Numbered from the stretch's first letter, positions 7,442 through 61,698 are shown. The stretch: DNA of 64,000 nucleotides from Phaeocystidibacter luteus (GCF_008933115.1 NZ_WBVO01000001.1:310001-374000), one strand, 5' to 3'. The notes: generated by a model not told the origin, from the letters alone. Made by a program: numbers and translations.

Positions 7442-8962
7442 ATGAAAGTAACGACCTACCTAACTACCTTACTTTCCGCGGCGGTGCTCTTATCGTGTAT
7501 GCCTGAAATTGATACCGATAAGTTTACAAATTACACCTACCGTGGGGAATGGGGGATTCCGCTGGTTAACTCTCGCGTTAGCCTTCAGGATGTCTTAGCA
7601 GAAGACACCTTATTCACAATCGACCCTGATGGCGGGTTGCGACTCATTTATGAAAGCGACAGTGTTTTCGGGTTCGCGATTGACGATTTCGCCGCCATTC
7701 CTGGTCAGGACCCATTAGAAACAACCGTTCCTCTAGACGTTCCTTCTCTTAATGTCAGCACTTCACTAGGCACCATTGGCGGTGCGAAGTTCAAGCAGTT
7801 GAGAATTCGAGAAGGATCCCTAAAGCTTGAGGTTGATAACCCAACAGCCAATTCAGTTGATCTATCTGTAACGATCAACAACGCGGATATTTCGGGACAA
7901 ACGTTTTCCATAAACCTGACTGCAACGCCAGGTATTTCCTCGCAAACCGTTGACGTAGCTGGGTTGGATATCGACCTTTCCAACAATGGGTTAACCGAGA
8001 ATTACCTCTCATTTGAGATTGATATTCTCAGCAACGGTGGCGCTACGGCGGGTCAAACTGTTGACCTAGCACTCACGTACGAAGAGTTACTTGTAGGTAG
8101 AGCAGTTGGATATTTTGGTCAACGTACAGTAGCCGTTCCTTCTGGCAACTTCCAACTTGGAGTTGAGGCCTTCGAAAACTTCCTGAATGGACTCTACCTG
8201 GCAGATCCGACCATTGAGCTGGTTGTTTCTTCAAATGTTGGACTTCCTCTTCAACTCGATTTAGATTTGGATGGCGTAAGTACCGCAGGCCAACTTGAAT
8301 CTCTTGGTCTCGCAGCCATCAATATTACAGGGCCATCTGTCATTGGTAATTACGACACAACCAATATTCTGATCGACCGTACCACGAGTAACATTGTTGA
8401 TTTTATTGCAAACGTTCCCAATACCATTCTATATAGTGGTGCAGGAATTATGAATCCGCAAGGTGAAACCGGAACGGACAACTTTATCACTGCCGACGGT
8501 GAAATGCAGGTTGGTCTTCGAATCGACCTTCCTCTTGCCTTGAGAACGCAAAACCTCATTTTCCAACAAGAGATTGGGAACCTAGACTTCGGCGGTCTTA
8601 CCGAGCAAACGGATGCAGTTGAGGAATTGACCTTGAAGTTCCACGTTGAAAACGAGTTTCCTTTCGATGCAGATATGAAACTGCAGTTCTACCAGAACGA
8701 TGTACTTACTGACAGCGTGCTTCTCGATTTATTCGATGCCGCCCCAGTTGATGGAAACGGAAGAAGCACAGGATATCAGATTACAGATGAGGACGAAGTG
8801 CTCTCTGGCGATAAGATCAATAGACTTCTCCAAGCAGATCGCTTGGTGATGACCATTACGTTGAATACCACCAACAATGGCAATACAACAGTAAAACTAT
8901 ACGAGGACTACGACATCCTGGTTCAGTTAGGAGTAGATGCTAAACTCAATTACGATCTGTAA
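7442..8962 (+). CDS. Large surface or periplasmic lipoprotein, unknown function
   Basis: This 506-residue lipoprotein has a signal ending in the lipobox L-L-S-C (Cys19). The rest is mostly beta-strand with many short Thr/Asn/Val/Leu-rich repeats and no cysteine clusters or recognisable catalytic motif. The composition suggests stacked beta-sandwich domains. The stop codon overlaps the ATG of the DUF5723-like barrel gene as TAATG, so the two are translated together and may act together at the outer membrane. A one-mismatch -7 element (TATTTTCG, 7412-7419) lies upstream, so it may have its own promoter as well as read-through from the PorE-like gene. Confidence 0.7.
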   Translation: MKVTTYLTTLLSAAVLLSCMPEIDTDKFTNYTYRGEWGIPLVNSRVSLQDVLAEDTLFTIDPDGGLRLIYESDSVFGFAIDDFAAIPGQDPLETTVPLDVPSLNVSTSLGTIGGAKFKQLRIREGSLKLEVDNPTANSVDLSVTINNADISGQTFSINLTATPGISSQTVDVAGLDIDLSNNGLTENYLSFEIDILSNGGATAGQTVDLALTYEELLVGRAVGYFGQRTVAVPSGNFQLGVEAFENFLNGLYLADPTIELVVSSNVGLPLQLDLDLDGVSTAGQLESLGLAAINITGPSVIGNYDTTNILIDRTTSNIVDFIANVPNTILYSGAGIMNPQGETGTDNFITADGEMQVGLRIDLPLALRTQNLIFQQEIGNLDFGGLTEQTDAVEELTLKFHVENEFPFDADMKLQFYQNDVLTDSVLLDLFDAAPVDGNGRSTGYQITDEDEVLSGDKINRLLQADRLVMTITLNTTNNGNTTVKLYEDYDILVQLGVDAKLNYDL

Positions 8963-57203: not shown

Positions 57204-57677
57204 ATGGACATAGTTCTTTTCATCTTAGGGTTCTCACTTCTACTGGCCGGTTTTGCCGGAAGTATTTTGCCTATCCTACCTGGCCCACCCCTCGGATGGG
57301 CAGGATTACTCGTGATTTCCTTCTCTGAAACCGTAGATTTTTCCAATACATTTTTAATCTGGATGGCCATAATAGCGGGCGTCATAACGGCTCTAGACTA
57401 TTACATTCCCGTTTGGGGCACAAAGAAGTTCGGAGGAACGAAAGCTGGGATACGAGGTTCTACCGTCGGATTGATTCTCGGGCTGTTCTTCGCACCAATC
57501 GGAATTATTATCGGCCCTGCCATTGGTGCATTCGTAGGCGAAATGATTCATGAAAGAAATTCCGACCGCGCCATGAAGTCCGCCGTTGGATCATTTATAG
57601 GGTTCCTTGCCGGAACAGGACTCAAAATAATTTATGGAGCCTACGCCTTGTACAAGGCCATTGTCGTGTTCTTTTAA
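57204..57677 (+). CDS. DUF456 family membrane protein
   Basis: This 157-residue inner-membrane protein has about four to five helices. It starts FILGFSLLLAGFAGSILPILPGPPLGWAGLL, shown here as a region of about residues 6-36, and has the later glycine-rich segment FGGTKAGIRGSTVG, matching DUF456. Function is unknown. It is transcribed towards the CoA-binding gene and shares a 4-bp stop overlap with it. I see no strong promoter in the 140-bp spacer 57063-57203. Confidence 0.8.
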   Translation: MDIVLFILGFSLLLAGFAGSILPILPGPPLGWAGLLVISFSETVDFSNTFLIWMAIIAGVITALDYYIPVWGTKKFGGTKAGIRGSTVGLILGLFFAPIGIIIGPAIGAFVGEMIHERNSDRAMKSAVGSFIGFLAGTGLKIIYGAYALYKAIVVFF

Positions 57678-58057
57678 TACTGTCCAGTACTTAAGAGAAC
57701 GAGTGTACAAGCAACATCTGGCTCAATCCCCTTTGCCTTGAGGCTTATCATCCATTCTGGATTCTCTGTTCCTGGATTGAAGATTACACGATTCGGCTGA
57801 AGTGCCTCAACCACAGACTTATAACCCTCTTGAATGGTAGGGTTCACGTAAAGTGTTACGGTGTCGATTTCGCCGGGCGCAAAGGATGGAATTTCGCGTT
57901 GAATCTCACTTCCAGCTACCGATCCATCTCTACGTCCCACTAGAACAATATCATGCCCTGCATCCTTTAACATATGCGCTGCGCGATAGGCATACCGAGA
58001 AGGATCTGGGTGTGCACCTAGTACTAAGACCTTTTCTTGTTTTAGATTTGTTTTCAT
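57674..58057 (-). CDS. CoA-binding domain protein
   Basis: This 127-residue protein matches the small CoA-binding (Rossmann-like) family, with VLVLGAHPDPSRYAYRAAHML (region about 9-30), GSEIQREIPSFAPGEID and VIFNPGTENPEW. These bind CoA or NAD-like nucleotides by analogy; no reaction is known. Its ATG (58055-58057) overlaps the ATG of the divergent ABC ATPase gene by two bases (CATG), and the -7 element of that gene lies inside this coding region. Its stop shares 4 bp with the DUF456 gene. Confidence 0.83.
   Translation of the reverse strand: MKTNLKQEKVLVLGAHPDPSRYAYRAAHMLKDAGHDIVLVGRRDGSVAGSEIQREIPSFAPGEIDTVTLYVNPTIQEGYKSVVEALQPNRVIFNPGTENPEWMISLKAKGIEPDVACTLVLLSTGQY
58043..58050 (+). promoter_or_regulatory. 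-7 promoter element of the ABC ATPase gene, inside the divergent gene
   Basis: TAGATTTG is a perfect -7 match 5 nt before the ATG at 58056, predicting a leaderless transcript. It lies within codons 3-5 of the CoA-binding gene on the other strand. Confidence 0.45.
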
Positions 58058-58697
58058 GATAGATAAACTCGAGTGGAATTCACTTTCCTATTCATATAAC
58101 CAGACGAATACGATTTCGTTTCCTGACGGTCGAATAAATCGCGGTGAAGTACTTGCCGCCATTGGACCTTCCGGCTCTGGCAAAAGTACGTGGCTCCAGC
58201 TCTTATCTGGCATCTTAGCCATTCAAAAAGGCGATGTTCACTACGGAGAAACGAGTTTAAAAGGTACATCCGAAAGAAGAAGAGACAAACTGAGAGCCCA
58301 AAATGTAGGTCTAGTTTTTCAAAACAACCACTTTTTGAATGAGTTGAGCGTTTCCGACAACCTTAGCCTACCTGCCTTTGCACAGAAACACCAGCTCGAT
58401 TCCAATCACATTGCCGAATTAGCCAATAGGCTTCATGTCGACCATTTATTAAATCGGAAGCCCAAAGAGTGCTCCGTAGGCGAATTACAGCGTCTATCTA
58501 TTGTTCGCACGCTCTCTACCCGCCCTTCATTCCTCTTGGCAGACGAACCCACCAGTGCACTCGATGACGTTAACACCGAATCTATACTGTCCATTTTTGA
58601 TGAACTCGTAGCCGATTTAAATATCGGTGTGCTGATCGTAACGCATGACAACAGAGTGAAGTCGCATTTTTCCAACACCATAAACTTTGGAAAATGA
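58056..58697 (+). CDS. ABC transporter ATP-binding protein (FtsE/LolD-like)
   Basis: This 213-residue ATPase has Walker A GPSGSGKST (about 37-45), signature CSVGELQRL (a variant of LSGGQ with VG), Walker B FLLADEPTSALD and switch His in IVTHD. It overlaps the permease gene by 4 bp (ATGA), so the two work together. Its start codon overlaps that of the divergent CoA-binding gene. With the His-rich permease and CFFCG proteins it probably forms a metal-related system, inferred from context. Confidence 0.87.
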   Translation: MIDKLEWNSLSYSYNQTNTISFPDGRINRGEVLAAIGPSGSGKSTWLQLLSGILAIQKGDVHYGETSLKGTSERRRDKLRAQNVGLVFQNNHFLNELSVSDNLSLPAFAQKHQLDSNHIAELANRLHVDHLLNRKPKECSVGELQRLSIVRTLSTRPSFLLADEPTSALDDVNTESILSIFDELVADLNIGVLIVTHDNRVKSHFSNTINFGK

Positions 58698-59869
58698 GAC
58701 AGATGAACACGTTTAAACTAGGCTTTCTACAGGTTTGGACCCGCAGATCAAGACTATTCATTCAATGGGCTATGGTGTGCATCGGCTTGGCCTTAGTAAG
58801 TGGATTTTTCACGTTTGAAAAGAGTACCGACGCCCAGCTTGTAAATGACCTCTCCTCTATCGACCAAATTTGGTGTGCCAAAGGATCGCCGTTACAAGGC
58901 CTACTGGCGAACGTTTACCATATCGATAATCCAACCGGAAACATTTCTCTTTCGGAAGTCAACGAATACGCTCAAAACCCAATGATTGAGCGCGTTACAC
59001 GTATTTCCTACGGCGACGTGTACAAGGGACGAAGAATACTTGGGGCCGACGCAAGCTGGTCGGATCTTTATTCACTCAACCCGACAGAAGGCAAGCTTCC
59101 CGAGAATGAAATGGAGGTTGCTCTCTCTAAAGCACTCTCTGCGGAATTGGGATTGAAAGTCGGAAGCACGTTTCACGGTCAGCACGGCAACGCTGAAAGC
59201 GGACACGAGCACGAAGAGGACTATGTGGTAGTTGGTATTTACGAGAATACAGGCACAGTTGCGGATCGCATCTTACTCACCAGTCTTTCAAGCGTGTGGC
59301 ATGTTCACCATTCTGACGAGGAAAGCAAGGAGATTACTGCGGCGCTTATAGAAACTACATCACCTATGGCACTCTTTCAGTTGCCAAGGTTAATAAACTC
59401 AAAATCAACATTCCAAGCCGTATTGCCGAGTATCGAAGTGAATCGAATCCACGCCCTACTCGGGAATACTCAGTCGGCATTCATCGCCCTAAGCGCACTA
59501 TTTCTGCTTCTTGGCGGCTTGAGTATTGGGATTACTATCCACGAAACGGTGCGTGCTCAACAATTTGATCACACCTTACTTCGTGTATTTGGATTGAGCC
59601 CGTTCCGACTAGCGCTCACCATCTGGACTCAAACCTTGCTCCTCCTTGGAAGCGCATGGGTAGTAGGTATGCTATTCATCAAACTTACGATATACGCTTT
59701 GTCTCCTACGATTGCGGTGGATTATGGCCTCGAGCTTCAATTTGAAGTGATGAATTCTACCGACTTCAAGCTCCTTGCGGTTGCTATTATACTTGGATTG
59801 ATTATTGCCATTCCACCTGTCATTCGTATCTTCAAAACCACCATTCACAAGAACTTAAAGAATGCGTAA
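58694..59869 (+). CDS. FtsX/MacB-like ABC permease with His-rich loop
   Basis: This 391-residue permease has an N-terminal helix (about 22-40), a large periplasmic domain (about 40-255), and three C-terminal helices. The motif AKGSPLQGLLANVYHID followed by PTGNI (about 62-84) marks a MacB-like ABC subgroup. The periplasmic domain has a metal-like His cluster: His161, His164, His171 and His173, then His203, His205 and His206 (HGQHGNAESGHEHEE, WHVHHSDEE). I infer metal binding. It overlaps the ATPase gene by 4 bp and the next gene by 8 bp, so the four genes form one unit. Confidence 0.85.
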   Translation: MRQMNTFKLGFLQVWTRRSRLFIQWAMVCIGLALVSGFFTFEKSTDAQLVNDLSSIDQIWCAKGSPLQGLLANVYHIDNPTGNISLSEVNEYAQNPMIERVTRISYGDVYKGRRILGADASWSDLYSLNPTEGKLPENEMEVALSKALSAELGLKVGSTFHGQHGNAESGHEHEEDYVVVGIYENTGTVADRILLTSLSSVWHVHHSDEESKEITAALIETTSPMALFQLPRLINSKSTFQAVLPSIEVNRIHALLGNTQSAFIALSALFLLLGGLSIGITIHETVRAQQFDHTLLRVFGLSPFRLALTIWTQTLLLLGSAWVVGMLFIKLTIYALSPTIAVDYGLELQFEVMNSTDFKLLAVAIILGLIIAIPPVIRIFKTTIHKNLKNA

Positions 59870-60281
59870 ATACCTCATTTTATTCACTTTACTACTCAGC
59901 CTTTCGAGTAACGCTCAAATGACTTTGGAATGGACCCTCTTTACGGGTACAGGTTACGACATTGATGAAGATGGGGCGTTTGTAAATCCAGAATACCCGG
60001 AAGCGTTGAAGGCTTGGGATGGCAAAGAGGTTTTGATAATTGGCTACATCGTTCCTGTAGACGTTCAATTGAAGACTTATGTGCTTTCTCAGTTTCCCTT
60101 GCAGCAATGCTTCTTTTGCGGCAATGCAGGTCCCGAAACGGTTATTCAGCTTTTCTTCGATAGTTCGCCGCCACATCTGCTGACGGATCAATACGTTATT
60201 TTGAAAGGAAAACTCGTCCTAGGCCAGGCCAAGCCTGGAAGTTTCTTTTTCACGCTCTATAACACTGAACTTGCAGGATGA
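59862..60281 (+). CDS. Secreted CFFCG-motif protein 1 (DUF3299-like)
   Basis: This 139-residue protein has a signal peptide (MRKYLILFTLLLSLSSNA). The core EVLIIGYIVPVDVQLKTYVL leads to QQCFFCGNAGPETVIQLFF, with two Cys in CFFCG. By recall this resembles DUF3299, proteins found beside MacB-like transporters; the match is not certain. It is a clear paralogue of the next gene. The Cys pair could bind a metal such as zinc or copper. Overlapping starts with the permease gene indicate cotranscription. Confidence 0.7.
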   Translation: MRKYLILFTLLLSLSSNAQMTLEWTLFTGTGYDIDEDGAFVNPEYPEALKAWDGKEVLIIGYIVPVDVQLKTYVLSQFPLQQCFFCGNAGPETVIQLFFDSSPPHLLTDQYVILKGKLVLGQAKPGSFFFTLYNTELAG

Positions 60282-60715
60282 GAATTTCAACCCTACTACT
60301 CTGCCTATGCGTCAGCGTTTCATCCGTTGCTCAGACGACTATCAAGTGGGCTGATTTAGAAGATGTTGATTTCGTCGAATTCTATGATAGGGAAAGAAGC
60401 GAATGGAGTTTGAAGGCCGAGTTCTCAGAAGAGATATTGGCGCTTGACAATCAAGAAGTTATAATTACGGGCTACGTAATTCCTCTCGATGTTTCAGGAG
60501 AAGTTTACGTCCTCTCAGCGTTCGCTTTTAGTTCCTGTTTCTTTTGTGGAGGCGCAGGCCCCGAAACCGTGATGGGATTGACCTTCACGGACACACCTCC
60601 CCAGCTAAAAACAGATGATGTAATTTCCGTTCGGGGCACACTGCAAGTCAATGTGAATCCCGGTTTAGAGTTTCACTACATGCTCACTGATGTAGTTATT
60701 ACCAAGCTATTTTAA
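60278..60715 (+). CDS. Secreted CFFCG-motif protein 2 (DUF3299-like)
   Basis: This 145-residue protein has a signal peptide (MRISTLLLCLCVSVSSVA), then EVIITGYVIPLDVSGEVYVL and SSCFFCGGAGPETVMGLTF, aligning with the preceding gene through the whole core. This indicates a tandem duplication followed by divergence. It overlaps the first copy by 4 bp and its stop overlaps the next gene's ATG (TAATG). The likely role is in the same periplasmic metal-related system. Confidence 0.7.
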   Translation: MRISTLLLCLCVSVSSVAQTTIKWADLEDVDFVEFYDRERSEWSLKAEFSEEILALDNQEVIITGYVIPLDVSGEVYVLSAFAFSSCFFCGGAGPETVMGLTFTDTPPQLKTDDVISVRGTLQVNVNPGLEFHYMLTDVVITKLF

Positions 60716-61698
60716 TGAAAGCCAAGCATTATTTCCTTCTCCTTCTCGTCATCCTGGTGGTGGTATATTTATCGGGACCAACACCCGATACTCCGAATTA
60801 TTCGGGGACAGTTGTTCGAAACATCGACGCTGAGAACCTTCTCACGAAGTCCAACTTAGATCCAAAAGGTGTGAAAGAAGGAAATGAGACTTTGCTTCGC
60901 TTCTCAGGTCAAGCCACACCATATTCAATACTCTACCTACACGGATTCAGCGCAAGTCCAGAAGAAGGAAACCCCGTCCACTCCCAATTGTACGAGCATT
61001 TTGGCTACAACCTGGTAGCACCAAGACTGTACGCCCACGGTTTGGTTACAGATAATCCATTAATGGAATTCAGAGCCGATTCTGCCTGGCACAGCGCTGT
61101 TCGAGGTCTCGAAAAGGCCTTGGCCATTGGCGATTCGGTAATTGTAGTGAGCACTTCTACAGGCGGAGCACTCGCCACGCGGTTAGCCCAATTAGATTCA
61201 CGAATCGCGGCGCTGGTGTACTATTCTCCGAACGTGATGCCCAATGATGGCGCAGCATTTTTACTTAACGACCCTTGGGGTGAGCAAATCGCAAGAATGG
61301 TTCTCAATTCCAATTTTAGGGATTTGCAGATATCTGACCCCTACTACGAGAAATTCTGGTACCGCTATTACCGGGTAGAGTCACTTCCAGAAATGCAAGA
61401 ATTAGTAGAAACTGGATTTGATGAAGAGGCTGTGAGGTCAATTCATGTACCGGTGATGGTGGCATGTTGGTACGAAAGTGAAGAAAAGCAAGACGATGCG
61501 GTAAGCGTTCCGCACATGCGAGAATTTTATAGTCAATTGGACGTTCCGAATAAGCAATTCATTGAACTAGCGGCTAACTCACACGTGATTGCCAACGGTC
61601 GCTATAGCTCAGTAGTTCGAGAATTGACGGACACCACTATTCACTTTTTAACGTCCAATGGCTTTATGCCCGTTGCTAAAGACACCACAGCCCCTTAA
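60715..61698 (+). CDS. Membrane-anchored alpha/beta hydrolase
   Basis: This 327-residue protein has an N-terminal hydrophobic helix (about 6-22) that is probably a signal anchor or signal peptide. The oxyanion loop is LYLHGFSASPEEGNPV near 73-88 and the nucleophile elbow is STSTGGA (Ser near 146). The acid is unassigned, possibly an Asp after MVACWYES near 250, and the base is probably His in ANSHVIANG near 293. The substrate is unknown. TAATG overlap with the previous gene ties it to the ABC operon, though it may serve another job. A promoter for the following BatA gene lies at its end. Confidence 0.75.
   Translation: MKAKHYFLLLLVILVVVYLSGPTPDTPNYSGTVVRNIDAENLLTKSNLDPKGVKEGNETLLRFSGQATPYSILYLHGFSASPEEGNPVHSQLYEHFGYNLVAPRLYAHGLVTDNPLMEFRADSAWHSAVRGLEKALAIGDSVIVVSTSTGGALATRLAQLDSRIAALVYYSPNVMPNDGAAFLLNDPWGEQIARMVLNSNFRDLQISDPYYEKFWYRYYRVESLPEMQELVETGFDEEAVRSIHVPVMVACWYESEEKQDDAVSVPHMREFYSQLDVPNKQFIELAANSHVIANGRYSSVVRELTDTTIHFLTSNGFMPVAKDTTAP

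Follow-up and report, generated by a model that had tools for sequence, protein, structure and literature searches.

A Zrg-like ABC Gene Cluster without ZrgA in Phaeocystidibacter luteus and Other Bacteroidota

The gene cluster at positions 58056-60715 of a 64,000-nucleotide stretch of the Phaeocystidibacter luteus genome (NZ_WBVO01000001.1:310001-374000, hereafter the window) is probably a variant of the Zrg zinc-scarcity ABC system that lacks ZrgA. This reading draws on homology to zrg loci, zinc-type gene neighborhoods, a recurrent palindrome, metal-like residues, the lack of ABC-3 permeases, and the co-occurrence of permease and DUF3299 genes; it is weakened by the missing local box, the missing ZrgA, the exporter-type fold, and the lack of evident zinc binding by PA4066, and weakened further by E1 and E2 scores below the DUF3299 cut-off, the presence of ZIP proteins, and the export data from Pseudomonas aeruginosa. 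Because ZrgA, the defining feature, is missing, we use the label "Zrg-like" rather than "Zrg system." The Zrg family itself is already known; new, as far as the literature was searched, are the ZrgA-less form, the duplicated CxxC DUF3299-like proteins, the conserved histidine set of the permease, and a phylum-wide candidate Zur box.

Gene Cluster and Permease Histidines

Four overlapping ORFs fill the region on the plus strand, with neighbors overlapping by 4 to 8 bases in the pattern of a translationally coupled operon. They encode an ABC ATPase (ZrgC-like, 213 aa, 58056..58697), a MacB-fold permease (ZrgB-like, 391 aa, 58694..59869), and two exported DUF3299-like proteins, E1 (139 aa, 59862..60281) and E2 (145 aa, 60278..60715). 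A sequence-only reading of the same DNA had described an ATPase, a MacB-like permease, and two secreted CFFCG proteins here, with which the ORFs and the Pfam matches agree. On the minus strand, a divergent CoA-binding gene (57674-58057) has a start codon that shares two bases with the ATG of the ATPase gene. Downstream, an alpha/beta hydrolase gene (60715..61698, plus strand; Pfam Abhydrolase_6, 8.5e-12) starts at the last base of E2, an order kept in most members of the bacterial family and absent in other orders; it is probably the next gene of the same transcript, and its membership of the Zrg-like system is uncertain. ORFs and Pfam revealed no MacA/HlyD-type adaptor gene among the genes at 57204-61698, and ZrgD (DUF2607) was not seen in the cluster.

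The catalytic motifs of the ATPase, which matches ABC_tran at 7.9e-28 (Pfam), are intact: Walker A GPSGSGKST, signature VGELQ, Walker B LLADEP, and H-loop VTHD can all be read from the sequence. Its closest named model is LolD (E 7.4e-44), at a score far below the cut-off of that model. In Pfam, the permease finds MacB_PCD at 1.2e-8 and, with a weak score, FtsX. Of its roughly four long helices, the first two enclose a periplasmic domain. Its structural model (pLDDT 90.6) resembles MacB, LolCDE, HrtBA, and other type VII transporters of this kind in fold, and the permease profile matches LolF/LolC over its C-terminal half; phmmer with the permease against PDB sequences found nothing.

The permease contains 12 histidines (76, 161, 164, 171, 173, 203, 205, 206, 253, 283, 293, and 385), and the seven that the earlier reading had listed for the periplasmic domain (161, 164, 171, 173, 203, 205, and 206) are exactly placed. 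Only part of that list proved to be conserved across an alignment of 131 permease rows, which include some near-copies. His164 (codon 59183..59185, plus strand) and His205 (59306..59308, plus strand) are histidine in 131/131 rows and His173 (59210..59212, plus strand) in 128/131, with a histidine close by in the other three; His206 is partly conserved, and His161, His171, and His203 are not. The same three residues are present in a PA4065-type sequence, in alphaproteobacterial ZrgB, and in Deinococcota permeases, so that the set is near-invariant from Bacteroidota to Deinococcota and makes up three of the 13 permease columns conserved at 97% or more. Non-Zrg MacB-like paralogs align with the permease only outside the periplasmic region, and the claim for the triad is one of conservation inside the permease family, not of absence from ordinary MacB proteins. 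The model places His164 and His173 on either side of a beta-hairpin turn and His205 at the end of a helix. In many relatives, His205 is immediately followed by an inserted segment that can reach about 100 residues, and the pooled stretch following this histidine is composed of 17.6% His and 37% Asp plus Glu, as compared with 2.2% His in all ORFs. The paper on the P. aeruginosa operon makes no mention of histidines (PMC11481552). From this pattern we infer a Zn2+ site made up of the three histidines. The family-wide set makes bare metal the favored ligand of the permease and is silent on inward versus outward movement.

The motifs AKGSPLQ (residues 62-68) and PTGNI (80-84) had been taken as pointers to the vibrio-type zrg permeases. 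On their own they give no such pointer: they mark the Bacteroidota form, and PA4065 and alphaproteobacterial ZrgB read ARSGSV and NATNN at these places.

The LolD match of the ATPase and the LolF/LolC match of the permease profile could also suit a Lol- or FtsEX-like lipoprotein or cell-envelope machine with no metal role, in which the histidines would be incidental. We regard such a machine as very improbable in view of the His triad, the His-rich insert, the DUF3299 partner, and the palindrome and gene-neighbor data presented below.

Plasmids of Thermus and Deinococcus (L157:2940-7047 and L158:2599-7092) carry a related pair of ATPase and permease genes in which the His set is kept, beside genes for an alkaline phosphatase and for a small unknown protein; no DUF3299 is annotated there.

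The CFFCG Proteins and the Absence of ZrgA

As read from the sequence, both E1 and E2 have an N-terminal Sec-type signal peptide, and CFFCG lies within a CFFCGN core in E1 (motif 60108-60122) and a CFFCGG core in E2 (motif 60536-60550). Neither reaches the cut-off of PF11736 (DUF3299), E2 scoring 14.7 bits versus 22 and E1 giving no match, and a PF11736 family search of the window's own genome returned zero matches, with a control that was likewise silent. Within the E family, 15/34 members match DUF3299 (PF11736), at best with 1.6e-5, and the family profile compared with undisputed DUF3299 proteins of Phaeobacter and Pseudooceanicola gives a probability of 93.6 and an E of 2e-7. The AlphaFold model of E2 (pLDDT 91.7) has a predicted OB fold, and its first solved match is 4hsp, which is PA4066 of P. 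aeruginosa, a DUF3299 protein homologous to ZrgE; it is the sole match below 0.001 (Foldseek E 1.5e-4). The comparison of the model with 4hsp (VIA) gave a Z of 9.8 over 111 residues at 21% identity; as the remaining solved matches, which are OB folds, reach Z 7-9, the margin for 4hsp is modest. By profile and model, E1 and E2 are remote DUF3299 (ZrgE) relatives. A profile search with the E proteins produced no credible match, tblastn of ZrgE-type sequences on plasmids found nothing, and the tree of E proteins is poorly resolved. A designed kelch/propeller identity for E2, raised by phmmer against PDB sequences, was rejected; the matches ran mostly via a short stretch.

Where E1 and E2 have C-F-F-C-G, the DUF3299 proteins of Phaeobacter and Pseudooceanicola have C-I-H-x-PPPP. 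The only invariant metal-capable residues in the Bacteroidota E set are the cysteines and D113, besides one serine; hence a full metal site in these proteins would take a second chain or a partner to complete. The CxxC motif could also be accommodated by a copper or thiol-redox system, in which CxxC copper chaperones or oxidoreductases would be powered by the ABC pair, and in Algoriphagus-type loci a SCO1-like gene is indeed just a few genes removed. To this alternative we give almost no weight: the predicted OB fold of E2 is no thioredoxin fold, the proteobacterial relatives have C-x-H instead of CxxC, the neighboring genes point to zinc, and the SCO1 gene occurs mainly in a block kept in a few related genera.

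ZrgA (PF10986, the former DUF2796 of Pfam) had no match in the genome of the window (G000; 3.2 Mb, 99.9% complete) and exceeded the cut-off in 0/247 sampled Bacteroidota, 29 of which have E-type proteins. In Vibrio cholerae, ZrgA is required for the system (PMC9820375). Given its absence, the Bacteroidota form must do without ZrgA or use an unrecognized substitute, for which E1/E2 and the His-rich segment of the permease itself are the obvious candidates. ABC-3 permeases (ZnuB-type, PF00950) were found neither in this genome nor in its genus; ZIP proteins are present in the genus and could carry zinc in.

Zinc-Type Neighborhoods, a Palindrome, and the Probable Local Promoter

In 19/80 Bacteroidota loci (GTDB), genes for FUR-family proteins, COG0523 GTPases (scored as cobW plus CobW_C), MerC, or TonB receptors lie up to seven genes from the permease gene. 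A dyad search upstream of zrgC, conducted with no prior motif, yielded de novo the palindrome TGCAAC-N3-GTTGCA, which occurs with at most one mismatch in 15/81 non-redundant upstream regions, with 0.06 expected. Across 973 kb, 36/39 copies lie upstream of zrgC, FUR, COG0523, MerC, or TonB genes, in zones covering about 5% of positions, an enrichment that is partly expected at zrgC, where the palindrome was derived; 17/39 copies stand upstream of FUR, COG0523, MerC, or TonB genes only and not of zrgC. Six scrambled palindromes gave 0-2 matches each, none of them upstream of zinc-type genes. Paired copies are often 35-40 bases apart. We infer from COG0523 and the other neighboring genes that the regulator senses zinc; a subset of COG0523 is reportedly tied to zinc, according to the title of one paper. 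The palindrome is a candidate Zur operator for much of the phylum, and the literature search, which left most subscription journals outside, found no paper on a Bacteroidota Zur box or on TGCAACN3GTTGCA.

The window's own genome harbors two palindromes 38 bases apart (L142:8486-8500 and 8524-8538; G000:C1:190485 and 190523), one of them with one mismatch, upstream of DUF4625 lipoprotein and FUR-family genes and after a TonB receptor gene. This pair is a candidate Zur operator, and the FUR protein encoded beside it at L142:9352-9762 is a likely Zur, since the pair lies upstream of its gene; the better FUR match in this genome is a separate gene (window 4955), and for COG0523 there are weak cobW matches only.

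The sequence-only reading had proposed a search for a Zur/Fur-type box, and the outcome was divided: the palindrome is found in many relatives (the 15/81 regions above), and at the locus itself no copy with fewer than three mismatches occurs at 56.5-60.9 kb, nor does one occur in any member of its own bacterial family that was retrieved. Instead, TAGATTTG (58043..58050, plus strand) lies 5 nt before the first ATG and is a -7 promoter element of the type known in Bacteroidota. It is exactly conserved at the same place in two same-genus genomes, and the same -7 element precedes the approximate zrgC start by 11-13 nt in many relatives. No -33 element was seen before TAGATTTG, and a sigma-70 scan gave fewer matches than shuffles. 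With TAGATTTG 5 bases before the ATG, the transcript is probably leaderless and not under the palindrome. As far as can be judged from these nucleotides, there is no support for zinc control at this locus; the absent box makes the zinc claim weaker here and leaves it unaffected for the family at large.

In four Bacteroidota loci (L067, L081, L082, and L104), an alkaline phosphatase gene lies a few genes from the operon; its PhoX type was Pfam-tested for L081, and the other three fall in the same cluster. PhoX is, to our knowledge, not a zinc enzyme, and its presence near the operon may therefore reflect zinc sparing.

Known Systems, Transport Direction, and Distribution

The earlier reading's proposal of a zinc-linked ABC system of the DUF3299/zrg type is supported by the E2 fold and profile, the palindrome context, and the matches of the permease to zrg loci. 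On plasmids, tblastn with the permease found the zrg loci of Phaeobacter (pS26_248: Fur-family, DUF2796, ATPase, permease, DUF3299), Pseudooceanicola (p111: ZnuA, two GTPases, DUF2796, ATPase, permease, two tandem DUF3299), and P. aeruginosa (L164, CP109682.1: DUF2796-ATPase-permease-DUF3299-oprG), with PF10986 confirmed by test in the first two. The Rhodobacterales plasmid loci share the ATPase-permease-DUF3299 order with the present cluster, and Pseudooceanicola also the tandem DUF3299 pair; they differ in having ZrgA and, directly upstream, a Fur-family gene (Phaeobacter) or COG0523-type GTPases (Pseudooceanicola). The CP109682.1 block follows what we take to be the PA4063-PA4067 order. This record is a 425-kb P. 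aeruginosa sequence labeled as a plasmid; in PAO1, the block is chromosomal.

ZrgABCDE of V. cholerae and V. parahaemolyticus and PA4063-PA4066 likewise consist of a separate ABC ATPase, a MacB-like permease, and an OB-fold DUF3299 protein, and the PA4065-type permease shares His164, His173, and His205, with a PA4063-PA4066-type locus standing in for the Vibrio sequences in this comparison. The Phaeocystidibacter cluster departs from these systems in having no ZrgA, no visible ZrgD, and no Zur-type box, and in having two CxxC DUF3299-like proteins where Vibrio and P. aeruginosa have one with C-x-H. With MacB, LolCDE, and HrtBA (type VII ABC) it shares the permease fold and the mechanotransmission architecture, whereas the MacA-like adaptor and the fused ATPase are missing and conserved histidines and DUF3299 partners are present. 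The proposed physiological role resembles that of ZnuABC and other cluster A-I zinc importers, from which the cluster differs by an unrelated permease (PF00950 in ZnuABC) and by the lack of a cluster A-I binding protein.

The published roles of Zrg conflict, with zinc uptake proposed in vibrios and metallophore export in P. aeruginosa. In vibrios, zrgABCDE supports zinc-limited growth and is Zur-regulated (PMC9820375, PMC9817125). In a P. aeruginosa strain without zinc uptake genes, deletion of PA4065 raised cell cobalt and pyochelin and left cellular zinc unchanged, PA4066 showed no evident zinc binding, and the data favor export of a pyochelin-cobalt complex (PMC11481552). Common to both lines of work is a role of the operon under zinc shortage. 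What was measured for metal content and pyochelin on PA4063-PA4066 (PMC11481552), together with the match of the permease fold to MacB, LolCDE, and HrtBA, speaks for a MacB-type exporter or recycler that would expel a metallophore, a metal-ligand complex, or surplus metal (cobalt) at zinc shortage. For the present cluster we find this unlikely: no MacA/HlyD-type adaptor gene accompanies it, the ATPase and the permease are separate genes, the near-invariant His set across phyla suits bare metal better than pyochelin, and a V. cholerae zrgA mutant in a znuA background loses zinc-limited growth (PMC9820375). An inward passage of zinc itself through the inner membrane is only the likelier of two readings.

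In a Zrg-like system lacking ZrgA, His164, His173, and His205 would hold Zn2+ in the periplasmic domain of the permease, and E1 and E2 would stand in for ZrgA, carrying zinc in the periplasm or serving as docking partners; if the two paired, their CxxC motifs might together build a single Cys4 site. ATP binding and hydrolysis would shift the periplasmic domain by mechanotransmission, and zinc would be taken from or handed to the partner, improving the zinc supply of the cell in scarcity. The most specific version, in which a type VII permease binds zinc by the His triad and imports it without a ZrgA-type protein, fed by a CxxC OB-fold pair, is possible, if doubtful; if true, it would mean a metal importer with a fold for which only exporters and envelope machines are known. 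The ZrgA-less Bacteroidota form and the three cross-phylum permease residues offer a clean mutational test of the role of Zrg.

By its named relatives, the window's genome falls in Bacteroidota, probably in Flavobacteriales. Relatives of the permease occur across Bacteroidota, with at least 583 confirmed in a GTDB scan. Homologs of E2 were found in 52/99 relatives, for the most part with the tandem arrangement and the neighboring permease seen here; in three relatives, the E pair is away from the ABC genes with the permease elsewhere in the same genome, and four tested family members without the E pair are also without the permease. Permease and E pair thus travel together. The E1-E2 pairs set apart from ABC genes at L041:9396-10362 and L043:9380-10325 are flanked by purL-like and RNA methyltransferase-like genes, named by eye. 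A contig titled Euryarchaeota archaeon (L103) carries a Crocinitomicaceae-like copy of the operon and is probably misbinned. In another genome (G028), a third, solitary CFFCG protein is encoded close to MerC (L039:7929-8420), near a cluster of FUR, DUF4625-like, and TonB genes.
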